DNA of 64,000 bases from an uncultured Bacteroidales bacterium (GTDB lineage Bacteria > Bacteroidota > Bacteroidia > Bacteroidales > P3), in NCBI GenBank assembly GCA_900317125.1, contig ONFR01000002.1:1-64000 (forward strand). The letters run 5' to 3'. Below the pieces are notes generated by a model, which saw only the letters and a program-made list of their open reading frames with translations, searched no databases and was not told where the DNA came from. Shown piece by piece: positions 12,789 through 51,146 of this stretch. Both the position numbers and the translations under genes were made by a program. Positions within the stretch are counted from its first letter, which is position 1, and each line of letters opens with the position of its first letter.

Positions 12789-13421
12789 GTCAATTTTTTC
12801 TTCCAAAAGCGATTTTTTTTGTTCCTGCTCATGTTTGAATTATGTAAAATGTTGTAAATGAGTTTAGTGTTTGCAAATTATTTAACATTTGCGAAAGGCT
12901 GGAATCTTGTTTCGGAGGCGGTTGAAATGTTTACATTTTATTGAAAGCGTCATGTGAAGAGGGAGTAATAAGGCGGTTGTTGTTAGTTCTGTTCCTTATA
13001 TCAGGTATTTCCATCGTGATTCTGTCGAAGTAAGGTTCTGCCATTCGCCCATGCTCCCTGCTCCCTGCCCGTTTCTCCACCCTGGCTCCATCCTAACTCC
13101 ACCGAAACTCCATTCCCACCCGTTCGCGTTGCCCTACACAATAGAAGCGTCGTTCAATACAGGAAACTTGTAGTCTCGTTATTCATTCGTTTTCCTTTGC
13201 CATATCGAGTAACGATGCTGTGACGATGCTGTAACGATACTGGATTGAAGGGAGGAACAGGTGAGCGAGCTGGCGGTTTGGCTTTCGTTTGGCTGTTGTT
13301 ACCTCTTTCCGAGCTTGGTATTGCTCTGTGGATTACGGGTGTATGCATCGGTGTTGTTGCCGTCGGATTGAGGTTTGGGGATAAGGTGAATTATTTTTTT
13401 CTCCGAATCAAAAAAAAAGCG
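12789..13421. other. Gene-free region between divergent transcripts, containing one 101-bp element
   Basis: No frame here has a plausible start, length or protein character. The left third is A/T rich. About 13045-13130 is strongly pyrimidine-skewed (repeated CTCC and CCCT). A 101-bp iteron element occupies 13151-13251. The right end carries the pyrE promoter. Confidence 0.6.
13151..13251 (+). repeat. 101-bp iteron element, copy A
   Basis: Starts CGTTCAAT (13151) and ends ATTGAAGG (13251). Three direct 11-bp iterons of consensus GTAACGATGCT lie at 13209-13241, ending 10 bp before the right end. Same length and same architecture as the copies at 37723-37823 and 51046-51146. The 58 bp left of the iterons is weakly conserved except for CATATCGA just before them. 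Lies 180 bp upstream of pyrE. Confidence 0.7.
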
Positions 13422-13429
13422 TATCTTTG
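13422..13429 (+). promoter_or_regulatory. -7 box for pyrE
   Basis: TATCTTTG lies only 4 nt before the first ATG of pyrE. Transcription would then begin at or just before the start codon, giving a nearly leaderless message unless the second Met codon (13452) is used. Confidence 0.6.
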
Positions 13430-13433
13430 CGTT

Positions 13434-14090
13434 ATGAAAACAAACAACGACATGGCCCTTCAGACGGCCACTTTCTTACTGCAAGTCAAAGCAATAAAAC
13501 TTAACAACGAACACCCGTTTACATGGGCGTCGGGTCGCAAATCGCCCATTTATTGCGACAACCGTGTCACTCTTTCGTATCCCGAGATACGCACATTCAT
13601 CCGTCAGCGTTTCGTCGATGTGGTGAACGAGTATTGGGGCGACGTGGATGTTGTGGCCGGTGTGGCCACGGGCGGCATCGCCCAGGGCGCCCTGGTGGCC
13701 CAGGAATTGGGCAAGCCTTTCGTGTATGTACGCTCCGAGGCCAAGTCGCACGGCTTGACCAACCAGATTGAGGGCGAGATTCACGAAGGCCAGTCGGTAG
13801 TGGTCATCGAAGACCTCGTGTCGACAGGCAAGAGCAGCCTTATCGCCGTGAACGCTTTGCGCGAACGCGGCTGCAACGTGAAGGGTATGGCCGCTATCTT
13901 CACCTACGGCCTTGCCGTGGCCGAGCGCAATTTTGCCGACGCCAACGTCGAGCTGCACACGCTTACCAACTACGACACCTTGATCGAGGTGGCCTGCAAG
14001 GAGGAGTACATCCGTCCTGTGGAGATGGAGAGCCTTGCCGCCTGGCGCAAGAATCCCGAGGCGTGGAGCGACGCCCACATGAATGCGTAA
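13434..14090 (+). CDS. pyrE: Orotate phosphoribosyltransferase
   Basis: Converts orotate and PRPP to orotidine monophosphate, the fifth step of pyrimidine synthesis, in the cytoplasm. The PRPP-binding motif VVVIEDLVSTGKSS is near residues 122-135. Other family marks are KAIKLN, FTWASGRKSPIYCDNR, VAGVATGGIAQGALVAQ, PFVYVRSEAKSHG and LGK. The frame is open further upstream, but family alignment starts here: MKTNNDMALQ from 13434 gives 218 aa, and the Met at 13452 is an alternative. A promoter box lies immediately upstream. No other pyrimidine gene is adjacent. Confidence 0.97.
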   Translation: MKTNNDMALQTATFLLQVKAIKLNNEHPFTWASGRKSPIYCDNRVTLSYPEIRTFIRQRFVDVVNEYWGDVDVVAGVATGGIAQGALVAQELGKPFVYVRSEAKSHGLTNQIEGEIHEGQSVVVIEDLVSTGKSSLIAVNALRERGCNVKGMAAIFTYGLAVAERNFADANVELHTLTNYDTLIEVACKEEYIRPVEMESLAAWRKNPEAWSDAHMNA

Positions 14091-14107
14091 ACGTGACTAT
14101 GTGTTAA

Positions 14108-14190
14108 TGGATGTTGATATGCTGGATGTTGATATGTTGCGAGTCGTATAAACTTATCAACGTTGCAACGATATTAACGTATTAACGGAA
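14108..14190 (+). repeat. Dispersed repeat F, copy 1 (TGGATGTTGATATG family)
   Basis: Two tandem 15-bp units beginning TGGATGTTGATATG (14108-14122, 14123-14137) are followed by GAGTCGTATAAACTTATCAAC and an AT-rich tail with AACGGAATAACG. GTTGATA and TTATCAAC can pair as a stem. Related copies lie at 27944 and 30804. It occupies the pyrE to SUMF1-like gap. Confidence 0.6.
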
Positions 14191-14198
14191 TAACGAAT

Positions 14199-15236
14199 TT
14201 GAAACGCTGCTTTGCCATATTGCTGTTCGTTCTCTCGTTGCCGGTGCTGAGGGCACAGGTGGTGAGCGATGTGTCGTTCACACTCCGCAACGACTCGCTG
14301 GCCATACGGTATACGCTCGACCGACGTGCCGACATCTGCGTGCGGGTGTCGGTGGGCGGCGGACGCTATACCGAGCCTTTGAAGGGCCTGAGGGGCGCTG
14401 TGGGCAAGGGCGTGGAGCCCGGCACAGGGCTGACCATTGAGGCCATTCGCCTGTCGGAGATACGCGGGGTGGATTCGGCCGACCTTTCCTTTCTTGTTGA
14501 GGTGGACGACGGTGCCCTGCTGGTGTATGTCGACACACTGGCGTTCCGCATGCTGCCTGTCGAGGGTGGCAGTTTTGTGATGGGCTGCACCCATCCCCAC
14601 GGCGAGCGCCACACCTATGCCGATGAGCTGCCCACCCACAAGGTGACGGTGAACACGTTCTACATGGGGCAGCATGAGGTGACGCAGGGGCTGTGGAAGG
14701 CCGTGATGGGCGAGAACCCGTCGAAATGGGCAGAGGGCGACAGCTTGCCTGTGGAACAGGTGTCGTGGAACGCGGCACAGATTTTCGTGGCCCGTCTCAG
14801 CCAGATGACCGGTTACCGTTTCCGCCTGCCCACCGAGGCCGAGTGGGAGTATGCCGCGCGCGGCGGGGTACGGAGCCACAACACCCCTTATCCCGGTGTG
14901 CGCAGCCAGGTGTGGGAGACCTGCTGGTATGGCGGCAACAGCAACGGCCACAGTCACCCCGTGGGGCGGTTGCTGCCCAACGAGTTGGGACTGTATGATA
15001 TGGGGGGCAACGTGATGGAGTGGTGCAGCGACTGGATGGAGGCCTACAGCGCCTCGCCCCAGAACTGCCCGCAAGGTCCCCGCACGGGCGAGAACCGCAT
15101 TCTGCGCGGCGGCTGCTTCAACAGCCCTACGTGGGGTTGCAGCGTATTTGAGCGCAGCTGGTATCTGCCCGAGTATGGCTACAGCTATTTCGGCTGCCGC
15201 CTGGTGCTCGACAGCATCGAGCACGAAGAGGATTGA
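14199..15236 (+). CDS. Secreted SUMF1 / FGE-sulfatase-domain protein
   Basis: A 345-aa protein with a signal peptide (FAILLFVLSLPVLRAQ). An N-terminal beta-rich region of about 95 residues (VSFTLRNDSLAIRYTL) is followed by a formylglycine-generating-enzyme-like domain: GGSFVMGC, ELPTHKVTVNTFYMGQHEVTQGLW, VEQVSWNAAQIF, YRFRLPTEAEWEYAARGG, NELGLYDMGGNVMEWCSDW, RILRGGCF and GCRLVL. In this family the domain can oxidise sulfatase Cys, bind Ca2+, or be a structural C-type-lectin-like fold. I do not see the clustered catalytic Cys pair with certainty, so function is open. The start is TTG (14199); an in-frame stop lies just upstream and no ATG is nearer. Next gene hpt is 62 bp downstream. Confidence 0.87.
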   Translation: MKRCFAILLFVLSLPVLRAQVVSDVSFTLRNDSLAIRYTLDRRADICVRVSVGGGRYTEPLKGLRGAVGKGVEPGTGLTIEAIRLSEIRGVDSADLSFLVEVDDGALLVYVDTLAFRMLPVEGGSFVMGCTHPHGERHTYADELPTHKVTVNTFYMGQHEVTQGLWKAVMGENPSKWAEGDSLPVEQVSWNAAQIFVARLSQMTGYRFRLPTEAEWEYAARGGVRSHNTPYPGVRSQVWETCWYGGNSNGHSHPVGRLLPNELGLYDMGGNVMEWCSDWMEAYSASPQNCPQGPRTGENRILRGGCFNSPTWGCSVFERSWYLPEYGYSYFGCRLVLDSIEHEED

Positions 15237-15298
15237 AGGTGAAAGGACGAATGTGTTTCGCTACTTGCAACAGTCGACACATTCAAATAGCTTGAATA

Positions 15299-15838
15299 AT
15301 GGAAAAGATTCAGGTGTTGGACAAACAATTCAGATTGTATCTGCCCGAGTCGGAGATTCAGGAGGTGGTGCGGCGCGTGGCTGCTGAGCTGTCGCGCGAC
15401 TACAAGGGGCGCAACCCTATCCTCTGTCCTGTGCTGACGGGCAGTTTTGTCTTTGCCGCCGATTTGGTACGACAGCTTGATTTCGACGCCGAGGTGTCGT
15501 TTGTCCGCTATTCGTCCTATTCGGGCATGTCTACAACCGGCAAGGTGAAGGAGGTGATGGGTTTCCCGCAATCGTGCCGACACCGCGATGTGGTGATTGT
15601 GGAGGATATTATCGACAGCGGCATCTCGATGGAGTATGTCCTCGGCCAACTGAGGCAGTTGGAGCCTTCGAGCATCGCCATCTGCACCTTCCTCTTCAAG
15701 CCTGGTAAGTTCAAGAGGAATTACAAGATAGATTATATAGGCAAGGAAATCCCTGACGACTTTATAGTGGGCTACGGGCTCGACTATGAGGGCGTGGGAC
15801 GTACTTATCGCGATATTTATGTATACGAAGGTTTATGA
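15299..15838 (+). CDS. hpt: Hypoxanthine phosphoribosyltransferase
   Basis: Purine salvage enzyme of 179 aa that makes IMP or GMP from hypoxanthine or guanine and PRPP. The PRPP-binding signature VVIVEDIIDSGISM is near residues 99-112. LCPVLTGSFVFAADLVRQL, the flexible-loop segment VSFVRYSSYSGMSTTGKV and the DFIVGYGLDY nucleobase-binding region are all present. The stop overlaps the next start as ATGA, so it is translationally linked to the small lipoprotein gene. Confidence 0.97.
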   Translation: MEKIQVLDKQFRLYLPESEIQEVVRRVAAELSRDYKGRNPILCPVLTGSFVFAADLVRQLDFDAEVSFVRYSSYSGMSTTGKVKEVMGFPQSCRHRDVVIVEDIIDSGISMEYVLGQLRQLEPSSIAICTFLFKPGKFKRNYKIDYIGKEIPDDFIVGYGLDYEGVGRTYRDIYVYEGL

Positions 15839-16218
15839 AAAAACGTGTTTTATATTGCTTTCTGCTGTTGGCCGGAATGGCCTCGATGGTCAGCTGTATC
15901 GACGACCTGGACCTAGTGATCAACAAGGATGACCTTGTGGGCAAATGGCATGCCACCGACAAAACAACGGAATTCTGGCGTTTCAAGTCTGACGGCTCGG
16001 GGTTGACCTGGGACGAGGCGGACGATGTGCATGAGTATGACACAGGGGGGGTGCTGCATTTCACTTGGACGACCGTGGGGTCTCATCTTGAAATCGACTA
16101 CGCGGGCCAGATGGGGGAGCATGCCTACGAGAACTACACGGTCACCCGCCAGACGCAGGACACCCTGGTGTGGAAGGACATGTTTGGCGATAACAGAACA
16201 TTTGTCAAAGTACGGTAA
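15835..16218 (+). CDS. Small lipoprotein, lipocalin-like fold
   Basis: A 127-aa protein with a type II signal peptide (LLAGMASMVSC, lipidated Cys21). The mature part is VGKWHATDKTTEFWRFKSDGSG, HFTWTTVGSHLEI and VTRQTQDTLVWKD, a pattern typical of small lipocalin-like lipoproteins of Bacteroidota. Overlaps hpt by 4 nt and precedes the AsmA-like gene by 5 nt, so the three form one operon. The ligand or role is unknown. Confidence 0.8.
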   Translation: MKKRVLYCFLLLAGMASMVSCIDDLDLVINKDDLVGKWHATDKTTEFWRFKSDGSGLTWDEADDVHEYDTGGVLHFTWTTVGSHLEIDYAGQMGEHAYENYTVTRQTQDTLVWKDMFGDNRTFVKVR

Positions 16219-16223
16219 CAATC

Positions 16224-19200
16224 ATGAAAAAAGGTTGGAAAATAGCCCTCATATCCGTGGGGTCGCTGCTGGGGATTATTGTGGTGGCAGTGGCTGTGCT
16301 CTGCTGGCTGCTTTTCACCCCGGCCAGGCTTACATCAATAGTCAATGGTTTGGCTTCGAACTATATCACTTGCGAATACCATCTCGGCAAGGTGGGGCTG
16401 TCGCTCTTCAAGACATGGCCCGATGTGGGGGTGGAGGTGAAGGACGTGGTGCTGGTGAACCCCTATCAGATTCCCGCCGACAATGCCTTGGCGGCCAGTA
16501 TGGTGCATGACGACACCCTTGCGCGGGTGTCATCCTTGACCGTGGGGCTGGACTTGAAGGCGTTTCTGAAAGAGGGTGCTGTGGTGGTGCACCAAATCCG
16601 TCTCGACGACACCAAGGCCAATCTCTATACCGCGCCCGACGGGTGGAGCAACTTGGATGTCTTTGTCACCAACGACAAAGAGGAGGAGGAACCCACCGAC
16701 GAGTCGTCGTTACCCGAGATAATACAGTTGGAGAAACTGAGCGTCAACAATCTGCAGGCTCAATACTGCAACCTCCCTCAGCGCATGCTGGCTGAAGTGG
16801 GGGGTGTGGATATGGACATTAAGGGGTCGCTGCTGCATTCCGTTATCGATGCCGACATGAAGATGACGGTGGACAAACTGCTGCTGGATATGGTCGACAG
16901 CGCCGGGCATCCCGCGCTCTGCGCCAACGCTACCGACGTAGTGCTGCGTGCCGAGGCGGCGGGAACCACCGATTCGCTGCGCGGACGCATGAGGCTGTCG
17001 CTGCCCGAAGGCTATCTTGCCGCCGGGGGACAGGCGTTCACCACCGAGGCTATGTCGGCTTCGCGCCACGGCCTGCTGGACCTTGATGTGCCGTTCCGCG
17101 CCAATGTCGACAAGATGCGTTTTGCGCTGGATGAAGCTTCGCTCCGTCTGGCGGATTACAAGCTGGATGTGGACGGCGATGTGGCTTTGGCTCAGGAGGA
17201 ACGCCCGATGGAGGTCGACCTCAGACTGCAGTCGGACAAATGGCAGGTGGCAGACCTGCTGGCCATGTTGCCCCCGTTTATCACCGAGAGCCTGAAAGGG
17301 ATGAAGGTGGACGGGAAGGCGCAGCTGTCGGCACATGTGTATGGTGTGATGGACGAGGGCCGTATGCCCTTGGTCGACGCCGATGTCGAACTGGACAAAG
17401 GGTCGTTCGCCGCTCCCAAGATGCTGCCCGCCCCGCTGCGCAACATCACGGCAAGGGTCAGCGCCAATGTGAACCTCTCGTCGGACAGTGCCTATAAAGG
17501 GGTCTCCAAGGTGGAGATCCACCAACTGGATGCCAAGATGAGCCACTCCACCGTGGGCATTACAGGCACCGTCGACGACTTGATGGGCGATATGCTGGTC
17601 GACGCCCGCCTGAAGGGCGACCTCAATCTGCCCGACTTGCGTCCTTTCCTGCCCGACACCATGCCGCTCGACCTGCAAGGCACCACGCGTGTGGACCTGA
17701 AGGCCAAGAGCCGCCTGAGCGCGTTGACAGATATGGATTTGAAACGTATCCAGCTGGGCGGAAACCTCTATATGAAAAACATGAAGGTGCGTTGGGACAG
17801 CATACATGCCTCTTCGCCCCAGCTGAATGTCGCCTTGGCCCTGCCCACCAAGCGTCAAAGTGCCAAGGTGGCAGAACTGATTGGCGCACATATTATTGGC
17901 GGCCAGCTGGATGTGAAAATGGATAATATGAACCTCGATGCCCAGGTGACCAGTCCGGACATCAATGTGGGCATTCCGAATATCCTGGACAAAAAGCAGC
18001 CCTTGGCGGCGTCGTTCCGCATCGGAGCCAGCAAGTTGAATGTCAACATGGATTCGATGATTGTCTACTCGGACACCCTGAAGCTGAAAGGTAGCGTGAA
18101 GAACGACTCGACGCAGGACAATGTCCTGAAGCAGTGGAATCCAGATGTTGATATTGACATCCACCGCGCTGTGTTGGCCATGAACAACATGACCGAGGCA
18201 GTGCGTATGACCTCCTTTAAGTTCAACTACAAACCCGAGGTGTGCAACATCGAGCAGGCCGATGTGCTATGGGGAGTGTCGGACTACCATCTGGCGGGCA
18301 AGGTGTATGGTGTTGAGGATTGGCTCAGCCACAAGGGTATGCTGCGCGGGACACTGGATTTCAACTCGCAATATGCCGACATCGACCAGCTGATGGGCAT
18401 CCTCAGCGGTATGGGCACCGACGAGGACACCTTGGCACAGCAACGTGTCGAGGACAATGTGCCTAAAGAGGCCAACCCCTTCATCGTACCCAAGGATGTG
18501 AACGTGCGCCTGAACACCCACATCGCCCGTTGTGTGGCTTTCGGCAACGACCTCAACACACTGGGTGGCTCGCTCACTGTCAACGACGGCGTGGCGGTGC
18601 TCGACCAGATGGGTTTCACCTGCAAGGCTGCCCGCATGCAGCTTACAGGCGTGTATAAGTCGCCCAGGGTGAACAACCTCTTCACAGGACTTGACTTCCA
18701 TCTGCTCGACATCCAGATTGAAGAACTGCTGGAGATGATTCCATCCATCGACACCCTTGTGCCGATGCTTAAAGCCTTCAAGGGCAAGGCCAACTTCCAC
18801 TTGGCGGCGGAGTGCGCCCTCGACGCTTTCTATAAGCCCAAGATGAGCACCCTCCTCGGTGCCATGGCCATCAACGGCAAAGACCTTGTGGTGCTGGACA
18901 ATGAAAGCCTTGCCTCCATGGCTCGCTTGCTGCAGTTCAAGAATTGGAGGGAGAAAGACAACAATATCGGTGTGGACAGCATCAGTGTCGAGGCGCAGGT
19001 GGTCCGCAAGAACATCACCGTATATCCTTTCCTGCTCAATCTGCACAACTATCAGCTCTGCATCAGTGGACATCATTCGCTCGACAATAAGTGCAACTAC
19101 CACCTCGAGTTGCTCAAATGTCCCCTGCCTGCCCGACTGGCCATCGACGTGACGGGCAATATCTCCAAACCCAAGATTGAGCTTGGCAAGTTATTGTATG

Positions 19201-19298
19201 CCGAGATGTACAAACCCGAGGAGAAAGACTACCTGAGTGACTACACCCTCAGGGTGAAGAACCAGGTGAGGAAATACCTCGAGGCCAATGTGAAATAA
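16224..19298 (+). CDS. AsmA-family protein
   Basis: A 1024-aa protein with one N-terminal membrane anchor (residues ~7-32, KIALISVGSLLGIIVVAVAVLC) followed by the typical AsmA start TPARLTSIVN and LGKVGLSLFKTWPDVGVEVKDVVLVNP. The long beta-rich body matches AsmA / AsmA-like C-terminal regions (LDASLRL-type, VNDGVAVLDQMGF, GNISKPKIELGKLLY). Proteins of this family (AsmA, TamB, YhdP) are thought to form hydrophobic-groove bridges that move phospholipids between inner and outer membranes. The link to hpt and a lipoprotein by tight spacing is not explained by function. A long repeat-rich stretch follows the gene. Confidence 0.9.
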   Translation: MKKGWKIALISVGSLLGIIVVAVAVLCWLLFTPARLTSIVNGLASNYITCEYHLGKVGLSLFKTWPDVGVEVKDVVLVNPYQIPADNALAASMVHDDTLARVSSLTVGLDLKAFLKEGAVVVHQIRLDDTKANLYTAPDGWSNLDVFVTNDKEEEEPTDESSLPEIIQLEKLSVNNLQAQYCNLPQRMLAEVGGVDMDIKGSLLHSVIDADMKMTVDKLLLDMVDSAGHPALCANATDVVLRAEAAGTTDSLRGRMRLSLPEGYLAAGGQAFTTEAMSASRHGLLDLDVPFRANVDKMRFALDEASLRLADYKLDVDGDVALAQEERPMEVDLRLQSDKWQVADLLAMLPPFITESLKGMKVDGKAQLSAHVYGVMDEGRMPLVDADVELDKGSFAAPKMLPAPLRNITARVSANVNLSSDSAYKGVSKVEIHQLDAKMSHSTVGITGTVDDLMGDMLVDARLKGDLNLPDLRPFLPDTMPLDLQGTTRVDLKAKSRLSALTDMDLKRIQLGGNLYMKNMKVRWDSIHASSPQLNVALALPTKRQSAKVAELIGAHIIGGQLDVKMDNMNLDAQVTSPDINVGIPNILDKKQPLAASFRIGASKLNVNMDSMIVYSDTLKLKGSVKNDSTQDNVLKQWNPDVDIDIHRAVLAMNNMTEAVRMTSFKFNYKPEVCNIEQADVLWGVSDYHLAGKVYGVEDWLSHKGMLRGTLDFNSQYADIDQLMGILSGMGTDEDTLAQQRVEDNVPKEANPFIVPKDVNVRLNTHIARCVAFGNDLNTLGGSLTVNDGVAVLDQMGFTCKAARMQLTGVYKSPRVNNLFTGLDFHLLDIQIEELLEMIPSIDTLVPMLKAFKGKANFHLAAECALDAFYKPKMSTLLGAMAINGKDLVVLDNESLASMARLLQFKNWREKDNNIGVDSISVEAQVVRKNITVYPFLLNLHNYQLCISGHHSLDNKCNYHLELLKCPLPARLAIDVTGNISKPKIELGKLLYAEMYKPEEKDYLSDYTLRVKNQVRKYLEANVK

Positions 19299-19318
19299 AG
19301 GAAACAACGTTTTATTAT

Positions 19319-19502
19319 CTCCACGTATCTCACGTATCACAAGTATTATCACTACAAGTGATTTTTATACGTGTAATACGCGAGATACGTGGAGTTCTTG
19401 TGAGATATGTGGAGACCTTGCAAGGTAGTGAATTTTATACGTGTAATACGCGAGATACGTGGAGATTCTGTGAGATACGTGGAGACCTCGCGAGGTGGTG
19501 AA
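19319..19502. repeat. Two 70-bp tandem repeats preceded by an inverted copy of their core
   Basis: Two 70-bp units (19363-19432 and 19433-19502) carry TTTTATACGTGTAATACG and GAGATACGTGGAG and are nearly identical. Upstream, CTCCACGTATCTCAC (19319-19333) is the exact reverse complement of GTGAGATACGTGGAG at 19470-19484, so the transcript could fold into long alternative hairpins. The repeats lie in the 258-bp gap between convergent genes, just before a terminator. No coding frame. Confidence 0.75.
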
Positions 19503-19509
19503 AAGCAAA

Positions 19510-37516: not shown

Positions 37517-37940
37517 ACCAAATCGGTCATTCGGCCGACTTTTCAATCAGGATAACCGCACTCTCGATTCACTTTTTACACTTTTCCGACGGACACTCCA
37601 ACCCCGCCGCAACGCCCTCCACACTCCTTCCTTGCCCAGCCTTTGCTCCCTCACTGCGCCTTCCCTGTACCACCGCAGTGCCGGGAAGTCTCAGCCGTCG
37701 GTGCGCCACGACCCACTTGAGTCGTTCAATCTAGGCTCGATGTTGCCTGCTTCCCGGCTTGTTATCCGTTATCATGTCGAGTAACGATGCTATAACGATA
37801 CTTTAACGATGCAGGATTGAACGGCCCCTCTCCGTAGCGAGGGGAAATCGTTGCCGCTTCACGACGCAGGGCTTATCCCCGTGCATTGCACGGCTCGGCA
37901 ATTACTCTGGATTTTTCGGTTTCCTAACGACCGATTTGGG
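37517..37940. repeat. 424-bp element with CCAAATCGGTC terminal inverted repeats, gene-free
   Basis: The left end is CCAAATCGGTC (37518-37528) and the right end GACCGATTTGGG (37929-37940). The last 28 bp equal the right end of the 138-bp element at 5959-6096 at 27 of 28 positions. Inside are a pyrimidine-rich stretch (about 37560-37680) and the 101-bp iteron element copy B. Frames inside have no protein character. Together with flanks this explains most of the 658-bp gap between folC and the lipoprotein gene ending at 38064. Confidence 0.6.
37723..37823 (+). repeat. 101-bp iteron element, copy B
   Basis: Starts CGTTCAAT (37723) and ends ATTGAACG (37823). Three 11-bp iterons (GTAACGATGCT, ATAACGATACT, TTAACGATGCA) span 37781-37813, again 10 bp from the right end and preceded by CATGTCGA. 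Nested within the CCAAATCGGTC element. Confidence 0.72.
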
Positions 37941-38005
37941 TTCAACTGACTGAAGGCATTTGGTGGAAAGGGTGACGGACAGGTACCCGTACGGTAGAGC
38001 AAAAA

Positions 38006-43264: not shown

Positions 43265-44596
43265 ATGAGAAAAGACGCTTTTTTTTATGGCCTGCTATTG
43301 TTGGTCACATTGAGCAACGTGTCGTGCCGCAAGGAACCTCTGGAAAACCGAGGCAACCCCAACAACCTTATCTGTAAGAACTATCTTTCGCAGTTTGAGG
43401 CTATCTGGTCGGGCATGGACCAGGGCTATGTGTTCTGGGACCGTGACACCGTCGACTGGGATGCCCGCTACGAGGAGTTCCGCCCTATTTTTGCCGCCTT
43501 CGATGCACGTCCGGCCAACAAGCCCGTCACGCAAATTGAATACATGGAAGCCTATACCGGCCTCTTCGCAGGACTGCTGGACCACCACCTCGCCGGTCGC
43601 TTTTATGCTGCCAAAGGCATACCTCATGGGCAATGTGAGGCTTTTGTGTCGCCCGGGACAAACGATTACTATCATAGCGTGTCCAATTCCGAAGCCCTCC
43701 GTTTGCAGCTCAAGGCTTTGCGCAAAAAGGCAATACCTGGAACGCTGGTGGAATACAGCCCAAATAATGATTATGGAAATCCGGGCTCATATTTCTGCCT
43801 GATTCCTGGTGCCAACGATGGCGAGTTGATTGCCTATTTCCGTTTCACCAACTTCTTCATGGTGCAGATGCATCAGAAGTATCAGTGGTATCCCAACTCT
43901 CCCGACTCGCAGAAGGCACAGGCTCCAGCCAGAGCCTTCTATGGCCCGCTCTATAATGAAGGCATCACTACCGAGGCAGGCTATGCCAACAATGATTCGG
44001 TGGTGGGCATCATCATCGATGTGCGAGGCAACGGTGGTGGCAGTGTGGAAGATCTGGAACCGCTTATTGGCTCCCTCTCCCAGTCGCCCACACTCGTAGG
44101 CTACACCCGTGTAAAGGAGGGCTATGGCCGACTGGACTACAGTGCTTGGTCGGAGAGTGTGGTAAACTGCCCCGCACTGCATCTTAATAAGCAGAAGCCC
44201 ATTGTGGTGCTGGCCGATGTCACGTCCGTCAGCTGTGCCGAGTTGGCAACGATGCTTATCAAAGCACTCCCCAACGGAACATTTATCGGCGAGAGGACGT
44301 ACGGTGCTATCGGTGGTCTCTATTCCGGTGGCTCCACCAACATCTATCACGACCTGTTCTACTCTGGTTGCTTTGGCGATTACGAGTACTTTGAAAATGG
44401 TCCCGACCCGTATCGCGATAACTTCTCCTACTATGTATACACCAGTACATTCCACATGGTCGACAACACTTACGGCGATGTGGAGGGTGTAGGTGTCCAA
44501 CCAGATATTGAGATTCGGTTTAATCTCAATAGGCTAGACGAAGGTACCGATAATCAGTTGGACCGTGCCATCCGATTCATCCGTGTGGGTCATTGA
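43265..44596 (+). CDS. S41-family peptidase lipoprotein, cassette copy 2
   Basis: 443 aa with lipobox LSNVSC (Cys21). Same plan as the copy at 41126: FEAIWSGMDQGYVFWDRDTVDWDARY, FAGLLDHHLAGRFY, GIIIDVRGNGGGSVEDLEPLIGSL (248-271), YTRVKEGYGRLDYSAW, SVSCAELATMLIKALPNGTFIGERTYGAIGG (Ser323 likely nucleophile) and the final YVYTSTFHMVD, EGVGVQPDI, DNQLDRAIRFI. The distinctive blocks are kept while the middle is divergent, so the duplication is old. It ends 9 nt before the convergent binding-protein gene. Confidence 0.87.
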   Translation: MRKDAFFYGLLLLVTLSNVSCRKEPLENRGNPNNLICKNYLSQFEAIWSGMDQGYVFWDRDTVDWDARYEEFRPIFAAFDARPANKPVTQIEYMEAYTGLFAGLLDHHLAGRFYAAKGIPHGQCEAFVSPGTNDYYHSVSNSEALRLQLKALRKKAIPGTLVEYSPNNDYGNPGSYFCLIPGANDGELIAYFRFTNFFMVQMHQKYQWYPNSPDSQKAQAPARAFYGPLYNEGITTEAGYANNDSVVGIIIDVRGNGGGSVEDLEPLIGSLSQSPTLVGYTRVKEGYGRLDYSAWSESVVNCPALHLNKQKPIVVLADVTSVSCAELATMLIKALPNGTFIGERTYGAIGGLYSGGSTNIYHDLFYSGCFGDYEYFENGPDPYRDNFSYYVYTSTFHMVDNTYGDVEGVGVQPDIEIRFNLNRLDEGTDNQLDRAIRFIRVGH

Positions 44597-44605
44597 TGAA
44601 CTTCA

Positions 44606-45526
44606 CTATCTGTTTAACTTCTCTCTGATATAGAGAATTGCCTGCAGATTGCGCGGCACCTGCAGGTCGATAGTCCCGCTCTCTATTGCTATCACCTTAC
44701 CCGTTTTCACGGCGGTGAGCTTGTTGTAGGGCTTGGTTCGGCAGAACGTGGCTGAGTCCTCGCGGCGAATCATGATGTATTCAGGATCGGCCTGCATCAA
44801 CGCCTCGAGGCTATAGCTCCAACCGGTGATGTCGGCGGCCACATTGTGACCTCCAGCCATCTCGATAATATCGTTGATAAAAGAGTTTCCCCCTGCGGTG
44901 AAGTTGCCCGAGGGACCGAATCCGACCACATAATATATGCTAGGACGAGGGGCTTCGTTAGTGGGAAGGCTTTCGCCAAGCGTACCCATCATGGAACGCA
45001 TGTGGGCGATGAGGCTGTCTGCCTGTCGGGTGCATCCTACTAATTGCCCGATCTTGGCGATATTTTCATACAGCCCTTCATATTGTTGCTTCTCAATCAC
45101 GCAGGCGATGGGGATGCCCATCTTCTCCAGTTGTTGGTGGCACTTTTGCGGTATCATCGAGCCACTGATGACCAAGTCGGGATTGAGGGAGGCTATTTTC
45201 TCCACATTCAGATTGCTTATGCCGCCGATTGAGGGAATCTTCTTTGCCTCGGGAGGGTAGGAGCAGAAGTCCGTCCGCCCGATAAGCAGCGAGTCGGCAT
45301 GCAATGCAAAAATAATCTCGGTGACAGCGGGAGAGGTGCTCACCACCCGTTTCGGGCAGGTGGGCACCTCCACTGTACGCTGATAGTCGTCGACAAAGGT
45401 GACGTACGCTTGGTTCGAAGGTGAGCCGGACGGGGCATTGCACGAAACCGTCACCATCGTGAATAGACTTAAAACACAGAGCATGAAGAACATTCTGTGT
45501 CGTGTACGGGGATTGGTGTTTGTCAT
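44606..45526 (-). CDS. Periplasmic metal-chelate/cobalamin-type binding lipoprotein (ABC transporter)
   Basis: 306 aa with lipobox TMVTVSC (Cys29). The fold is that of helical-backbone receptors for cobalamin, haem or ferric siderophores: VVSTSPAVTEIIFAL, SYPPEAKKIPSIGGISNLNVEKIASLNPDLVISG, IPIACV, EMAGGHNVAADITGWS and DPEYIMI. It would hand substrate to an inner-membrane permease, but none is encoded nearby. The gene starts 10 nt after fabG ends and may be co-transcribed with it. A TonB-dependent receptor of the right kind is at 51376-53451, not adjacent. Substrate not determined. Confidence 0.83.
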   Translation of the reverse strand: MTNTNPRTRHRMFFMLCVLSLFTMVTVSCNAPSGSPSNQAYVTFVDDYQRTVEVPTCPKRVVSTSPAVTEIIFALHADSLLIGRTDFCSYPPEAKKIPSIGGISNLNVEKIASLNPDLVISGSMIPQKCHQQLEKMGIPIACVIEKQQYEGLYENIAKIGQLVGCTRQADSLIAHMRSMMGTLGESLPTNEAPRPSIYYVVGFGPSGNFTAGGNSFINDIIEMAGGHNVAADITGWSYSLEALMQADPEYIMIRREDSATFCRTKPYNKLTAVKTGKVIAIESGTIDLQVPRNLQAILYIREKLNR

Positions 45527-45536
45527 AGCGTATGAG

Positions 45537-46283
45537 TTATGCGTCTTCCATTCCTCCGCAAAGGTGCATCACGTCGCCGGTGTTGTAGCTGCCCAGTTCT
45601 GATGCGTAGTACAGGCATGCATTGGCCACCTCTTGGGGTGTCCCCGGACGGCGTAGCGGGATACGTGTCTGCCAGTAGGTCTTCATTTGCTCGGGTATCT
45701 CGCCAGTCATCTCAGTGACGATGAATCCGGGGGCAACGACATTCATACGGATGTTGCGCGCGCCCAGTTCCTTCACTGCACTCTTGGTGAAACCGATGAT
45801 GCCGGCTTTGGCAGCTGCATAGTTGGCTTGTCCGGCGTTGCCTCCGATGCCTACCACGGAACTGATGTTGACAATACTGCCAAATCCCTGTTTCCACATG
45901 GAGGGCTGTACGGCCTGGGTCATCAGGAATACCGACTTCAAGTCGTTGTTGATGACGTTGTCCCACTGCGCCTCGGTCATGCGTTTGATGGCGGCGTCGT
46001 CGGTGATACCGGCGTTGTTGATAAGGATGTCGATATGGCCGAAATCCTGCAGTGTGTCGGCCACAAACTGCTGAGTGCTTTGTTTGTTTGCCACATCAAC
46101 GGCATACCCTTTGGCTTTCACCCCGAGGGCTTCAAGCTCTTTTTCAACCGATTCCATCTGTGCGTTGCGGCTGCGTCCGCAGAAGGAGATGTTACATCCC
46201 TCCTCGGCAAAGCGGAGGGCAATGGCGCGACCTATACCGCGGGTGGCGCCGGTGATAATGGCTACTTTGTCTTTTAAAAGCAT
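45537..46283 (-). CDS. fabG: 3-oxoacyl-ACP reductase
   Basis: 248-aa short-chain dehydrogenase. Cofactor motif TGATRGIGRAIA (11-22), NNAG (89-92), catalytic Ser141/Ser142 in NISSVVG, and Tyr155-x3-Lys159 in YAAAKAG. C-terminal GFIVTEMTGEIPE and GTPQEVANACLYYASELGSYNTGDVMHLCGG match FabG of fatty-acid synthesis, which reduces beta-ketoacyl-ACP with NADPH. Other SDR roles are possible but less likely. First gene of a pair with the binding lipoprotein; its own promoter is not evident. Confidence 0.93.
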   Translation of the reverse strand: MLLKDKVAIITGATRGIGRAIALRFAEEGCNISFCGRSRNAQMESVEKELEALGVKAKGYAVDVANKQSTQQFVADTLQDFGHIDILINNAGITDDAAIKRMTEAQWDNVINNDLKSVFLMTQAVQPSMWKQGFGSIVNISSVVGIGGNAGQANYAAAKAGIIGFTKSAVKELGARNIRMNVVAPGFIVTEMTGEIPEQMKTYWQTRIPLRRPGTPQEVANACLYYASELGSYNTGDVMHLCGGMEDA

Positions 46284-46337
46284 GATTAGTTACCTGTTTT
46301 TAGTTAGCGGTGTGCTACACTTGTGTTTAAAATACGA

Positions 46338-46378
46338 AGAGAGTTGAAAGTGATGGTGTCGCTCTCAACTCTCTTTTT
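46338..46378 (-). terminator. Terminator of gapA
   Basis: Perfect 10-bp stem AGAGAGTTGA (46338-46347) and TCAACTCTCT (46365-46374), loop of 17 nt. It lies 30 nt past the gapA stop and before fabG. T-rich on both sides, more clearly on the plus strand. Confidence 0.6.
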
Positions 46379-46407
46379 GCATTACCTATGGTAACGCTCT
46401 CTCATTG

Positions 46408-47415
46408 TTAGAGCAGGGTGGCCAGCTTGGCGGCGAGGTCGCCGACACGGGTGCTGTAACCCTTCTCGTTGTCGTACCAGCTGACAACCTTCACGAAGTT
46501 GCCATCCATCACCTGGGTCAGCAGGCTGTCGAAGATGGAACTGTGGGTGTTGTCGATAATGTCGACGCTGACCACGGGGTCCTCGGTATACTGCAGAACA
46601 CCCTTCATGGGGCCTTCGGCGGCAGCCTTGATGGCGGCGTTGATTTCTTCCTTGGTGACGTTGCGGTTCAGCTCAGCAGTGAGGTCCACAACAGAACCGT
46701 CGGGAGTGGGAACGCGCATGGCGAAACCGTCCAGTTTGCCTTTCATCTCGGGGATAACCAGACCCACGGCCTTGGCGGCGCCGCTCGAAGTGGGGATGAT
46801 CGAAACGGCGGCGGCACGGGCACGACGCAGGTCGCTGTGCGGCTGGTCCAGAATCTTCTGGTCGTTGGTATAGCTGTGGATGGTGTTCATCAAACCGCGT
46901 TTGATACCGAAGGTGTCGTTCAGCACCTTGGCGACAGGAGCCAGGCAGTTGGTGGTGCAGCTGGCGTTGGAGACGAGCTGCATCTCTTTGGTCAGCACAT
47001 TGTCGTTAACACCCATCACAATGGTAGCGTCCACATCCTCGGCCTTGCTGGCGGGGACGGTGAGGATAACTTTTTTGGCACCGGCGATGATGTGCTTCAT
47101 CATCTGCTCTCGTTTCTTGAACAGGCCGGTCGACTCAACCACGATGTCAACACCCAGCTCTTTCCAAGGCAGGTTCTGCGGGTCGCGTTCGGCATAGATC
47201 TTCACCTTCTTGCCATTCACTACGATGCAGTCGCCCTCGGCGTGCACTTCACCTTCGAAGTTGTCGTGCACAGAATCGTATTTGAACAGGTATGCCAGGG
47301 TGTCGGCACTGGTAAGGTCGTTAACGGCCACGATGTCCAATTCGGGATGGTCCAGCATGGCGCGGAAGGACATTCTTCCGATACGGCCGAAGCCGTTGAT
47401 TGCTACTTTTGCCAT
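46408..47415 (-). CDS. gapA: Glyceraldehyde-3-phosphate dehydrogenase, type I
   Basis: 335 aa. NAD-binding GFGRIGR (8-14) and VNDLTSADTLAYL. Catalytic SNASCTTNC with Cys153. Other marks are ESTGLF, HSYTNDQKILD, RARAAAVSIIPTSSGAAKA, GFAMRVPTPDGSVVD and SWYDNEKGYS. Oxidises glyceraldehyde-3-phosphate in glycolysis or reverses it in gluconeogenesis. The promoter is a consensus Bacteroidota site at 47469-47499. Gene is monocistronic, divergent from mtgA. Confidence 0.98.
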   Translation of the reverse strand: MAKVAINGFGRIGRMSFRAMLDHPELDIVAVNDLTSADTLAYLFKYDSVHDNFEGEVHAEGDCIVVNGKKVKIYAERDPQNLPWKELGVDIVVESTGLFKKREQMMKHIIAGAKKVILTVPASKAEDVDATIVMGVNDNVLTKEMQLVSNASCTTNCLAPVAKVLNDTFGIKRGLMNTIHSYTNDQKILDQPHSDLRRARAAAVSIIPTSSGAAKAVGLVIPEMKGKLDGFAMRVPTPDGSVVDLTAELNRNVTKEEINAAIKAAAEGPMKGVLQYTEDPVVSVDIIDNTHSSIFDSLLTQVMDGNFVKVVSWYDNEKGYSTRVGDLAAKLATLL

Positions 47416-47468
47416 ATTGTATTGCTTTTTAGGTATTTGTGTGAATTTTTGTTGTATTAATCGTTTTA

Positions 47469-47499
47469 CAAATATACATTTTTTTCTCTATTTGGCAAA
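47469..47499 (-). promoter_or_regulatory. Promoter for gapA (consensus)
   Basis: Minus-strand TTTG (47496-47499), exactly 19 nt, TATATTTG (47469-47476). A full match to the Bacteroidota primary-sigma consensus, as expected for a highly expressed glycolytic gene. Confidence 0.8.
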
Positions 47500-47506
47500 A
47501 AAATAG

Positions 47507-47514
47507 TACTTTTG
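47507..47514 (+). promoter_or_regulatory. -7 box for mtgA-xerD
   Basis: TACTTTTG, 73 nt before the ATG at 47588, only 7 bp beyond the -33 box of the divergent gapA promoter. T-rich -33 region without a clean TTTG. Confidence 0.5.
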
Positions 47515-47587
47515 CACCAATTTTTTAGGATAAATGCACTTTTTTCGAATGGGGTAATGTGCTCAATCCCCACACGATAACGATATT

Positions 47588-48469
47588 ATGGCAAAAAAAA
47601 CTAGACAAAAACATAAGGCTCGCAAGCGCCGTGGCTTGAAACGATGGAAACAACTCTCCTTTATGGGCAAGGTGTGGCGTGTGTGCTGGGTCACCCTTCT
47701 CTCGCTCTTCGGGTTCTCCATTTTCCAGGTATTGGTGTGCGCTGTCATCAATCCCCCGCTCACCCCGCTCATGGTTCAACGCTTCTTCGAACAGATGTCC
47801 GACAGCGAGCGTCCCGTGGTCTTCCAGCGCGACTACGTCTCCATCGACGACATCTCGCCCAACCTTATCAACGCTGTCGCCATTGCCGAGGACGGTGGTC
47901 TCTACATGTACCACCACGGCTTTGCCGTCCAGCGCATGAAAAAGGCCTATACCAGCTCCGTCACCAAGCGCACCCGTGCCGGCGGCAGCACCATCAGCCA
48001 GCAGACCGCCAAAAACTGTTTCCTCCCGCATACCCACCGCATGTGGCGCAAAGCCATCGAGGCCTACTACACCATCCTCATTGAGAAAATCTGGGGCAAG
48101 AAGCGTATCATGGAGTGCTATCTCAACATCATCGAGTTTGGCAACGGAATCTATGGATGCGAGGCCGCCTCACAGCACTATTTCCACCATTCCGCCAGCA
48201 AGCTCACCCGCCGCGAGGCCGCACTCCTTGCCGCCTGTCTGCCCTCACCCCTCCGAAGCAACCCCGCACGTCCGTCGCGCTACCTCTCCCGCCGTGCCTC
48301 CACCCTCCAGCACCGCATGGGCTTCTACGGCACCGCTGCCACCCTTCAGGACGGCAAAATCGTCATGACCGAGGGGAAGAACCCCAAATACAAGAAAATG
48401 GTCGAGGAGGAGAATATATTCGACTTTACCGTCTGGATGCTGAAGCAAAAAATGGGCATCAAAGATTAG
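47588..48469 (+). CDS. mtgA: Monofunctional peptidoglycan glycosyltransferase
   Basis: 293-aa GT51 enzyme that polymerises lipid II into glycan strands at the inner membrane. A basic cytoplasmic head (KKTRQKHKARKRRGLKRWK) is followed by one transmembrane helix (residues ~28-53). The catalytic Glu101 is in AIAEDGGLYMYHHGF. Motifs AGGSTISQQTAKN, KIWGKKRIMECYLNIIEFGNGIYGCEAASQHYF and LTRREAALLAACLPSP follow. No transpeptidase domain. xerD begins 3 nt after its stop. Confidence 0.94.
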   Translation: MAKKTRQKHKARKRRGLKRWKQLSFMGKVWRVCWVTLLSLFGFSIFQVLVCAVINPPLTPLMVQRFFEQMSDSERPVVFQRDYVSIDDISPNLINAVAIAEDGGLYMYHHGFAVQRMKKAYTSSVTKRTRAGGSTISQQTAKNCFLPHTHRMWRKAIEAYYTILIEKIWGKKRIMECYLNIIEFGNGIYGCEAASQHYFHHSASKLTRREAALLAACLPSPLRSNPARPSRYLSRRASTLQHRMGFYGTAATLQDGKIVMTEGKNPKYKKMVEEENIFDFTVWMLKQKMGIKD

Positions 48470-48472
48470 CCG

Positions 48473-49372
48473 ATGGACTGGAGCCTAAGCGTCAAGCATT
48501 TCGAGGTTCACCTCCGTCTGGAGCGTAACCTGTCGGCCAACACCGTCGAGGCCTACCTCCACGATGTTGCGCTGCTGCGACGCTGGGCCGAAGGCGAAGG
48601 GCTGCTCCCCGACCAGGTCACTGTCGAAGGGCTGCGCAGTCTCATCGCCCAGCTGAACGACATCAGTGTCTCTGCCACCACCCAGTGCCGCATCCTCTCG
48701 GGGTGGCGCGCCTTTTTCCGCATGCTTGTCATCGAGGATGTCGTCCTCGACAATCCCGCCGAACATATCGAGATGCCCACACGCCCCAAGCACCTTCCCG
48801 ACGTGCTCACCGATGCCGACATCACCGCCATGCAGGCCACCTTCGACCGCAGCCGCCCGGGCCCGTCGCGCAATTATGTCATTGTCGAAGTGCTGTATGG
48901 GTGCGGACTTCGGGTGTCCGAGCTTGTCAACCTCAAGCTCTCCAACATCTATGCCGAGGAGCGGATGCTGCAAGTGGTGGGCAAAGGCGACAAGGAACGC
49001 TGGGTGCCCATCAACGACCGCGCACTGAATCTCCTCCAGCACTACATCCTCTTCGAGCGTAGTCAGCTCTCCATCCAGCACGGCGAGGAAGTGTATGTCT
49101 TCCTCAACCTCCGCGGGCACCACCTGTCGCGTATCGCCGTCTTCCAATTCATACAGCAAGCCGCCATCGAGGCCGGCATCCACAAGAATGTCTCCCCGCA
49201 CAGCCTGCGCCACAGCTTCGCCACCGAGCTGGTGCAGAACGGCGCCGACCTCCGTGCCGTGCAGGAGATGCTCGGTCACGAAAGTCTTGCTACCACCGAA
49301 ATCTATACCCACCTCTCCCGCCAATACCTGCGCGACACCATCAGCACCTACCATCCCCACTACAAGAAATGA
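48473..49372 (+). CDS. xerD: Tyrosine recombinase XerD
   Basis: 299 aa, the standard length. The N-terminal SAM-like domain is WSLSVKHFEVHLRLERNLSANTVEAYLHDV. Catalytic residues are Arg147 (GCGLRVSEL), Lys171 (GKGDKERWVP), His243 and Arg246 (SPHSLRHSFAT), His269 (MLGHESLATTEIYTH) and Tyr278. Resolves chromosome dimers at dif with XerC. It sits in an operon with mtgA and not beside any mobile-element gene, so I read it as the housekeeping recombinase. Confidence 0.95.
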   Translation: MDWSLSVKHFEVHLRLERNLSANTVEAYLHDVALLRRWAEGEGLLPDQVTVEGLRSLIAQLNDISVSATTQCRILSGWRAFFRMLVIEDVVLDNPAEHIEMPTRPKHLPDVLTDADITAMQATFDRSRPGPSRNYVIVEVLYGCGLRVSELVNLKLSNIYAEERMLQVVGKGDKERWVPINDRALNLLQHYILFERSQLSIQHGEEVYVFLNLRGHHLSRIAVFQFIQQAAIEAGIHKNVSPHSLRHSFATELVQNGADLRAVQEMLGHESLATTEIYTHLSRQYLRDTISTYHPHYKK

Positions 49373-49651
49373 TGCCGTTGCCTATCAAGCTTAAGGCACA
49401 ATGCGGTGATTATCAGAAGTAAACTTAAGGGCCAAGACAGGGATGCAACACGAAAACAGAACCTGCCTTTAGTCTGGACGCAGTATTTGTCAGAATAAAG
49501 CTGATGCCATGAATGCCCACAGCACTGTGATTGGGGCAAAGAATTGCTGGCCCATCCGGTAACCTTTGCGCTGCTACATACTAAAAAACGCTTTTTTCAG
49601 TTATTGCAAAAGACATATCACAAGAGTTATCACAAACCCATTGCTCGCACC

Positions 49652-50056
49652 ATGTCAGAAAACGCACTTGTACCGCAAAAGATAGAGCAGTATGGCCGCC
49701 ACTACGACGACCACTCGCTTTGGAGTAAAATCAAGTCTGCCGCAGCCAACGCGGGCCGCAAAGTGATTTACAATGTTTTGCTGCTCTACTACATGCTCAC
49801 CGACGCCACCATCCCGCTCCGGCACAAACGCCTCATCATAGGTGTGCTGGGCTATTTCATCCTGCCCATCGACCTCATCCCCGACTTCATCCCCGGCACC
49901 GGCTTTGCCGACGACCTTCTCGCGCTCCTCTACGTGGTCAAGGTGCTGCACGACAGTATCACCCCCGAAATCAAGGCCAAGGCGCAAGCCAAATGCAACG
50001 ACTATTTCAAGACCGACAGCGGCCAGACACCCCTCCCTCCCGACAATAACAGGTAA
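49652..50056 (+). CDS. YkvA-family (DUF1232) membrane protein
   Basis: 134 aa from the ATG at 49652 (MSENALVPQKIEQYG); the extra upstream codons look non-coding. Core motif is LTDATIPLRHKRLIIGVLGYFILPIDLIPDFIPGTGFADDLLALLYVV, the DUF1232 signature with its Pro-rich IPDFIPGTG turn, flanked by two hydrophobic segments. Function of the family is unknown. msrA starts 16 nt downstream. The 279 bp before it, after xerD, hold no recognisable gene or repeat. Confidence 0.85.
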   Translation: MSENALVPQKIEQYGRHYDDHSLWSKIKSAAANAGRKVIYNVLLLYYMLTDATIPLRHKRLIIGVLGYFILPIDLIPDFIPGTGFADDLLALLYVVKVLHDSITPEIKAKAQAKCNDYFKTDSGQTPLPPDNNR

Positions 50057-50072
50057 AACATCATATCAACCA

Positions 50073-51032
50073 ATGGAAAAGCAACTCTATCTTGCAGCCG
50101 GCTGCTTCTGGGGCGCCGAGCACTTCTTCAAACAAATCGACGGCGTCACCTTCACCGAGGTGGGCTTTGCCAACGGCAACACCGACAACCCCACCTACGA
50201 GCAGGTCTATACCGACACCACCGGCTTTGCCGAGACGGTACGTCTCAGCTACGACCCCCTCCGTGTCAGCCTCACTTTCCTCCTGCAGATGTATTTCAAG
50301 GCTATCGACCCGACCAGCCTCAACCAGCAAGGCGAAGACCGCGGTACGCGCTACCGCACAGGCATCTACTATACCGACCCCGACGACCTCCCCTTCATCC
50401 GTCAGGCCATGGCCCACGAGGCCGCACGTCATTCCAAACCCCTGCAGGTGGAGGTGCTGCCCCTCAACAACTTCTTCCGCGCTGAGGACTACCACCAGGA
50501 CTATCTCGATGTCAATCCCGACGGCTACTGCCACTTGCCTGTCGCATTGTTCCGAGAAGCTCGCGAAGCCCGCGACCTTGCCACCCTGCAGAAAGCCGAG
50601 AAATACCGCCTGCTCCTCAAGCAGCTCCAGTCCCTCCTCGAGGGCGAAAAGGACCCCATCGCCTGCATGGCCAATGCCGCTGCCATGCTGCACGACACCT
50701 TCCACTTTTGGTGGACGGGGTTCTACCGCGTGGTGGGCGACGAGCTGGTGCTCGGTCCTTTCCAAGGTCCTGTTGCCTGTATGCACATCGCCTACGGCAA
50801 GGGCGTTTGCGGAACGGCCTGGCAGCAGTGCCGCACCCTGCTGGTGCCCGATGTCGAGCAATTCCCCGGCCATATAGCCTGTAGCGCGGCTTCACGCAGC
50901 GAGGTGGTCGTCCCCGTCATGCACGACGGTTCCGTGACGGCTGTGCTGGACATCGACAGCCAGCACCTCGCCACATTCGACTACGCCGACCGCCATTTCC
51001 TGCAAGAGGTGGCTGCCCTGCTCCCCTGTTGA
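50073..51032 (+). CDS. msrA: Methionine sulfoxide reductase fusion: MsrA plus free-Met-(R)-sulfoxide reductase (fRMsr)
   Basis: 319 aa. Start chosen at MEKQLYLAAGCFWGAEHFF (50073); the longer frame is non-coding. Residues 1-160 are MsrA, with nucleophile Cys11 in GCFWGAE, TGFAETVRLSYDP, GTRYRTGIYY, RAEDYHQDYLDVNPDGYCH (Cys153 a likely resolving Cys). Residues ~165-319 are a GAF-fold fRMsr (MsrC type): FHFWWTGFYRV, LVLGPFQGPVACMHIAYGKGVCGTAW, PDVEQFPGHIACSAASRSEVVVPV and VLDIDSQHLATFDYAD. It carries the three conserved Cys (236, 246, 270). One chain could thus repair protein and free methionine-S-sulfoxide and free methionine-R-sulfoxide. Fusion of these two families is uncommon to my knowledge. 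Confidence 0.93.
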   Translation: MEKQLYLAAGCFWGAEHFFKQIDGVTFTEVGFANGNTDNPTYEQVYTDTTGFAETVRLSYDPLRVSLTFLLQMYFKAIDPTSLNQQGEDRGTRYRTGIYYTDPDDLPFIRQAMAHEAARHSKPLQVEVLPLNNFFRAEDYHQDYLDVNPDGYCHLPVALFREAREARDLATLQKAEKYRLLLKQLQSLLEGEKDPIACMANAAAMLHDTFHFWWTGFYRVVGDELVLGPFQGPVACMHIAYGKGVCGTAWQQCRTLLVPDVEQFPGHIACSAASRSEVVVPVMHDGSVTAVLDIDSQHLATFDYADRHFLQEVAALLPC

Positions 51033-51045
51033 TATGGAGCAGATT

Positions 51046-51146
51046 CGTTCAATATTGCATCGTTACCGCTTTGTTACAGCATCGTTACAGGATATAATAA
51101 AGGGGAACGAGCCTGAAACGATGGTTGAAGGATGCAGTATTGAACG
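51046..51146 (-). repeat. 101-bp iteron element, copy C
   Basis: Inverted relative to copies A and B. Ends are CGTTCAAT (51046-51053) and ATTGAACG (51139-51146). The outer 17 of 18 bases are inverted repeats (TTCGTTCAATAYTGCATC). Three iterons are present as the complement at 51056-51088 (TGCATCGTTAC, CGCTTTGTTAC, AGCATCGTTAC), 10 bp from the end. It starts 14 bp after the msrA stop. Confidence 0.75.

Follow-up and report, generated by a model that had tools for sequence, protein, structure and literature searches.

RUP and Correia elements are prokaryotic miniature inverted-repeat transposable elements (MITEs), that is, short intergenic sequences with inverted ends that are present in many copies. 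Plasmid iteron centromeres of the parC type carry direct repeats phased at about 11 bp, to which ParR binds as an oligomer. A chromosomal motif of comparable length is the DNA gyrase motif of E. coli; as described in PMC6379681, it is 130 bp long and symmetric, with arms in which G/C is phased at 10.75 bp on either side of a 36-bp centre without periodicity, and it is enriched downstream of transcription units. The cleavage specificity of gyrase is reported to vary between species (PMC12324340). Here we analyse a family of intergenic 101-bp elements present in three copies in the window, the first 64,000 nucleotides of contig ONFR01000002.1 (assembly GCA_900317125.1) of an uncultured Bacteroidales bacterium. 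The titles and abstracts found by searching an open-access library contained no description of the plan of these elements.

We consider the elements, with a probability of about 40%, to be docking arrays for a putative two-fold symmetric DNA-binding protein that would be sensitive to both sequence and DNA shape.

Structure of the arrays

The sequence-only reading of this stretch had reported three copies, and all three were found where it placed them, each exactly 101 bp long and the third inverted (Table 1). The unit is dyad-symmetric and is built as 10 + 3x11 + 15 + 3x11 + 10 = 101 bp. Thus, two inverted sets of three iterons flank the dyad, and an element has six 11-bp iterons. The earlier count of three iterons has to be revised accordingly, while the helical phasing claimed for them stands; the 58 bp described as poorly conserved turned out to be the 15-bp centre, three inverted 11-bp iterons and the second 10-bp end.

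In the copy that was dissected, the left end reads C[C/G]TTCAATcc and the right end ggATTGAA[C/G]G. The iterons of the first set are near AGCATCGTTAC, those of the second set near GTAACGATGCT, and the centre is near CCGTCATNATGACGG; the end sequence of copy 1 is ATTGAAGG. The pattern extends ~12 bp past each end, where the flank consensus, read inward, is CA[C/G]TAAC. The overall patterned span is ~125 bp, symmetric and in 11-bp phase. With as many as 3 mismatches allowed, the pattern of three iterons had 3 matches in the window compared to 0 in 100 dinucleotide-preserving shuffles.

Two sub-families could be told apart. Class I copies (the window copy at 37723) sit in a longer repeated intergenic context, and class II copies (13151 and 51046) have unique flanks.

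Table 1. Positions of the three arrays and of their parts in the window.
Feature	Position	Strand	Basis
Copy 1, class II, 101 bp	13151..13251	-	92/101 identical to the orthologous 101-bp copy of the sister species, L124
Copy 1, iteron sets	13161-13193, 13209-13241
Copy 1, centre	13194-13208
Copy 1, ends	13151-13160, 13242-13251
Copy 1, outer flanks	13139..13150 and 13252..13263	.	Flank consensus, extended pattern
Copy 2, class I, 101 bp	37723..37823	-	98/101 to a copy in L106 (RGIG2732) whose flanks match
Copy 2, iteron sets	37733-37765 (diverged), 37781-37813
Copy 2, centre	37766-37780
Section of the longer class I repeat in which copy 2 lies; small palindromes adjoin the element	37690..37850, limits approximate	.	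Class I flank consensus
Copy 3, class II, 101 bp	51046..51146	+ (inverted relative to the other two)	96/101 to the orthologous L132 copy
Copy 3, iteron sets	51056-51088, 51104-51136
Copy 3, centre	51089-51103
Copy 3, outer flanks	51034..51045 and 51147..51158	.	Flank consensus

Class I copies (37690-37960 in the window) are part of an intergenic cassette longer than the element, in which small palindromes occur alongside a motif near CTAAYGACCGATTTGGG. The same motif occurs in intergenic DNA of genome G045, beside arrays of that genome's own type, and is perhaps a separate repeat. Some class I copies of the window's type were found on contigs of 4-21 kb from other assemblies (L092 and L144 in RUG539; L086, L104 and L106 in RGIG2732). 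L092 matches the window's own genome at 98%, and these contigs are possibly cross-binned.

Copy number, length and spacing

The genome from which the window comes (G000; below, the own genome) is a fragmented metagenome-assembled genome (MAG) of a rumen Bacteroidales, 2.96 Mb in 47 contigs; the relatives named below are MAGs as well. It has at least 83 copies of the element. A pattern search of the genome produced 69 matches, and a scored set of 150 rows amounted to 81 distinct places by our own count; two more copies were at C18:47991 and C24:28397 (the latter seen as a match only). These copy lists are limited by the patterns and therefore give lower bounds.

Lengths were counted for 50 of the 69 places, with the search open to 86-115 bp only. 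Two of them were dropped, one unrelated (C5:2528) and one a broken class I half (C22:19201). Among the 48 intact copies listed, 44 were exactly 101 bp long; the others had 90, 102, 111 and 112 bp. Among 26 class II copies of the own genome, pairs differ on average at 32% of their core positions; even so, 23 are exactly 101 bp. In genome G068, a search that admitted lengths of 90-115 bp found 48 copies with exact 20-bp ends; 34 were 101 bp long, 10 had 90 bp and 4 had 112 bp. Hence, the expectation that further copies would exist and would keep a preferred length over a fluid interior was borne out.

A weight matrix, built partly from the very copies scanned, found 13 elements with scores of 77-129 in 464 kb and nothing between 22 and 77; therefore, this 464-kb sample had no decayed copy. 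No solitary half element was seen in 464 kb of the 2.96 Mb, and a transposon with separated ends, of which these 464 kb had none, was set aside as a candidate. Separately, one class I copy of the own genome (L049, positions 745-2077, contig C22) is apparently interrupted, with ~1.3 kb of other DNA between its parts, while the sister-species copy at L138 is intact.

The copies are over-dispersed along the chromosome. For 50 intervals of the own genome, copies alone on their contig being excluded, the mean was 29 kb and the minimum 9.6 kb, although copies missed by the searches might shorten some intervals, here as in G068 below. Intervals below 9.6 kb numbered 0 out of 50 compared to ~14 expected; when copies were placed at random inside the contig spans, the 9.6-kb minimum was attained in 0 of 20,000 trials. 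For the coefficient of variation (CV), p was 0.017. In G068 (58 copies on contigs whose length is known, 47 intervals) the mean was 24.6 kb and the minimum 3.3 kb (p 0.0008), with an interval CV of 0.68 compared to 0.98 (p 0.002). As for gene context, 16 of the 37 own copies with called neighbours were in convergent gaps, compared to 21-23% expected, 6 in divergent and 15 in tandem gaps; the neighbours were called by a simple open reading frame (ORF) finder, and some elements overlap short, maybe spurious, ORFs.

Over-dispersion in both genomes would also be expected if the elements were a non-autonomous, MITE-like family with target immunity. We regard such a family as quite possible but doubtful. 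Its phased iterons would be transposase-binding ends placed back to back, and its sequence variants would follow the transposases. The intergenic position, the many copies and the inverted ends all agree with this explanation. An IS200-like transposase gene (L371, positions 974-1989, contig C36 of the own genome), 99.4% identical in the sister species, has a class II element ~0.4 kb away, which also speaks for mobility. The own genome has 3 Y1_Tnp genes; one has a single element within ~0.4 kb, and none is flanked by two. The two Y1_Tnp genes that were scanned scored 25.5 and 30.1 bits on the RAYT model, whose cut-off is 80; the IS200-like gene falls below this value. A RAYT partner was rejected given these sub-cut-off scores and the lack of a gene flanked by two inverted copies. 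Carriage by phages or plasmids was rejected too: there was no match in viral contigs (four patterns) or in plasmid or phage records (one query each), and this counts against mobility.

Conservation between sister species

The sister species is RGIG7974 (JAFZPH; G021). In 20 class II ortholog pairs, 147 of 2,020 element positions and 349 of 4,772 aligned flank positions differed, 7.3% in both. The iteron G, a position left free by the search pattern, changed 3 times in 120 compared to 20 and 21 changes at the neighbouring phases. As an aside on the flanks, 9 of those in the 20 pairs were gapped, 4 of them with exactly 11 gap columns.

We compared own contig C23 with sister contig C47, both of them fully tiled. 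All 6 comparable sites were occupied in both species, with one 90-bp loose-pattern row (L156:9922) treated as false since it was absent from the weight-matrix list, and one own row (L165) set aside as a class I site already counted through another row. Empty orthologous sites, which the earlier reading had proposed to look for in sister strains, were not found among these 6 sites of the sister species, a point against a mobile family. Five of the sites had 101 bp in both species and one had 112 bp in one species and 101 bp in the other; such a change of length between sister species would be in line with mobility.

Dialects and a common code

Palindromic arrays also occur in other species of the genus, with different iteron letters in the same 11-bp phase and with the same dyad; we refer to these variants as dialects. 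A one-dialect pattern had matches in 22 out of 120 genus genomes. The own dialect was abundant only in the own genome (66) and in the sister genome (73). Four genomes (G045, G055, G100, G103) had 1-3 array copies of it each, and the single matches in G047, G072, G089, G098 and G119 were, by eye, not arrays. A general model made from 28 elements of 9 genomes had matches in 31 of 41 genus genomes, the training genomes included. Across the order it had matches in 16 of 119 genomes, the own one included, mostly one weak match each, with 18 in G177. Array density in the genus blocks was 10-50 per Mb, biased upwards since the blocks of G008, G023, G002 and G107 were picked for containing matches. 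G107 had several dialects within one genome.

Two further observations concern the same sets of genomes. G029, a member of another family of the order, has 11-bp iterons TTTCATACGTG in an inverted array at L327 (~2752). In each of the five genus genomes whose blocks were examined (loci L146-L205), tandem repeats with a 7-bp period (7, 14, 21) were common.

A similar profile of S and W (G/C versus A/T) was seen in the eleven dialect sets: counted from the dyad, A/T peaked at multiples of 11 bp, give or take ~1 bp; several of the sets comprise 2-4 elements only, and the own and sister sets are not independent. Trimmed to 101 bp with the dyad in the middle, 28 elements from 9 genomes had invariant T and invariant A positions in common at every turn. 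In the own and sister sets together, 30 of 62 positions were at least 85% S or W, and at 8 of those 30 the commonest base made up no more than 75% of its class. For example, the position at distance 57 from the dyad was always G or C, in a ratio of 51:49. A fixed class with a variable base suggests that the arrays may be read through the minor groove or through DNA shape.

Pairing of the arms and RNA

If the elements worked as transcribed RNA hairpins, terminators or cruciforms, the arms of a copy should match each other. The near-perfect palindromes in G068 and G023 and the enrichment in convergent gaps would fit such a function. The complementarity of the arms within copies was, however, equal to that between copies: 25.0 and 25.03 of 42 in the own genome (23 copies), 23.75 and 23.68 in the sister species (40 copies). 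In three other dialects, the within-copy excess was not significant, with p values of 0.07 (G049, 9 copies) and 0.09 (G045, 7 copies), or the complementarity was below expectation (G008, 9 copies). A selected hairpin is therefore unlikely, and an RNA or cruciform hairpin was rejected. The RNAalifold consensus energy was -2.0 kcal/mol, and Rfam gave 0 gathering-level matches in the window. Altogether, we find a function at the RNA level very improbable.

Equal complementarity within and between copies indicates that the symmetry comes from each arm fitting one site consensus, as expected for a protein on double-stranded DNA. The sequence-only reading had left selection on protein-DNA or on RNA contact side by side; the pairing data do not support the RNA option, and protein contact with double-stranded DNA is the likeliest cause of the conserved plan.

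Possible turnover of cores and the case against docking

A number of observations weigh against a docking array. No binding protein for the arrays was found. The predicted static bend, computed with a single wedge model, was not above that of shuffles, and intrinsic curvature is thus not supported under this model. In most sets, periods of 3.67 and 5.5 bp had more S/W power than the 11-bp period; the pattern is therefore richer than a simple helical wave. For the 13 arrays of G107, the spacing did not reach significance (p 0.07 and 0.21). A single strong array turned up in 248 kb from other families, so the design is not confined strictly to the genus; judging from the G029 array and the 18 weak matches in G177, it may be more widespread. 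The 17 sister copies listed comprised 14 of 101 bp, two of 100 and one of 111. The 20 ortholog pairs had 0 gap columns in the elements compared to 117 in the flanks, but the pattern used to retrieve the sister loci had a fixed length of 101 bp and included TTCAAT, so neither this nor the intact TTCAAT can be counted as independent.

The G068 cores pose a further difficulty. In 20 copies from the top of the score list, the cores were near-identical, with a divergence of 0.4-2.9% and the same centre in 15, and the 11 bp of DNA adjoining them differed by 35-43%, yet was still patterned. Near-identical cores in divergent surroundings suggest core copying. With a MITE-like family, both these cores and the class I copies would be bursts, and near-identical cores with sharp edges and unrelated flanks are what it would leave. 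On the other hand, none of the 16 copies with exact ends, out of the 20 loci, had an abutting direct repeat of at least 3 bp as a target duplication. Joined outer flanks, which would mark an empty site, occurred 0 times in G068 with up to 3 mismatches (control 4). Therefore, the outer flanks seem to be part of the site itself, and insertion into a palindromic target was rejected for this genome. An insertion model in which no empty sites survive could still account for G068.

In genome G045 (UBA1208), 8 of 41 loci were comparable with the own or sister species, the other 33 having no orthologous DNA on both sides. Four of them had an own-dialect element in the same gap and four had none; the latter count in favour of mobility. 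However, three of the four gaps without an element were shorter than in G045 by ~320-510 bp, more than the length of an array. The coincidence of sites has p ~0.02 at a rough 15% chance per locus, and we rate it as suggestive only because the compared loci are enriched for elements.

Overall, the evidence on whether the family is a non-autonomous mobile element is divided. Mobility gains from the G068 cores and from the four differences in eight G045 comparisons; it loses by the lack of abutting duplications in G068 and of halves in 464 kb and by the occupancy of all 6 comparable sites in the sister species. We infer that the cores may have been copied onto, or homogenised at, old sites.

A possible architectural role

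The docking array appears to us the most economical reading. A MITE-like family explains the G068 cores and, by target immunity, the spacing, but in the DNA examined there were no target duplications, no halves, no decayed copies and no cleanly empty sites. In a docking array, protein subunits would make a contact at every 11th bp, all on the same side of the helix, along ~125 bp, and the DNA would thereby be bent, wrapped or bridged. The sites occur every 25-30 kb, are intergenic and often convergent, and in the own species are at least ~10 kb apart, all of which makes an architectural job likely. The arrays probably serve chromosome architecture, where they could hold supercoil domains, position a topoisomerase or anchor loops. 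The binder and its sites would have diverged together, with iteron letters becoming species-specific and the phase and dyad remaining fixed. Binding, wrapping or bridging, and the architectural role are all things that we infer from sequence patterns.

DNA gyrase is one candidate for the binder. If the arrays were strong gyrase sites, their arms would wrap around the C-terminal domains of GyrA, the dyad would be the cleavage point, and gyrase would be captured about every 30 kb. The length of ~125 bp, the symmetry, the 11-bp phase, the A/T maximum at the dyad and the enrichment in convergent gaps suit gyrase. The centre does not: the innermost repeats are highly conserved and begin 8 bp from the dyad, compared to the 36-bp non-periodic centre of the gyrase motif. 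The excess of S/W power at 3.67 and 5.5 bp is a second point against gyrase, and the several dialects of G107 would require one enzyme that accepts them all. We therefore hold gyrase sites to be improbable.

A broader possibility, which we think rather unlikely, is a genus-wide chromosomal spacing system in which two-fold arrays are evenly spaced and keep their phase, dyad, preferred length and many of their positions, while their iteron letters are rewritten genome-wide, apparently by the copying of cores onto old sites. Such a system would be closer to the turnover of centromeres or insulators than to any bacterial repeat family known to us. If the docking reading is right, a little-studied gut lineage would have countable and predictable architectural sites that vary in sequence at constant geometry, and the question of what marks the domains of bacterial chromosomes would become directly testable. 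Dialect switching would then be an example, rare among bacteria, of a binder co-evolving with dozens of sites across the genome. If the family turned out to be mobile, its spacing and its length steps of 11 bp would still be unusual.

Comparison with known systems

The arrays differ from ParR-bound parC-type centromeres, with which they have ~11-bp phased repeats in common, in being inverted and in being dispersed by the dozen over a chromosome. With MITEs such as BrickBuilt (PMC10969869) they share short length, inverted ends, intergenic location and many copies. Unlike MITEs, they have no abutting target duplication in G068, they change length in 11-bp steps, they show no decayed copies in 464 kb, and their sites are shared with the sister species.

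The REP/BIME repeats with their RAYT genes, as presented in PMC2817692, are alike in being dispersed, intergenic and palindromic, in forming species-specific families and in their proposed chromosome-organising role. The arrays have 101 bp and six phased iterons, compared to palindromes of 20-40 bp (PMC3733652); their arms need not pair, and no RAYT gene lies between two copies.

The gyrase motif is similar to the arrays in its size of ~130 bp, dyad symmetry and position near gene ends, and perhaps in its helically phased G/C (PMC6379681), whereas the arrays have a stricter sequence, repeats that come within 8 bp of the dyad, even spacing and species dialects. Finally, a period near 11 bp is also known from genome-wide 10-11 bp dinucleotide periodicity (PMC7537859, PMC4132750). 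That periodicity is a statistical bias of whole genomes, while the arrays are discrete dyad-symmetric elements.

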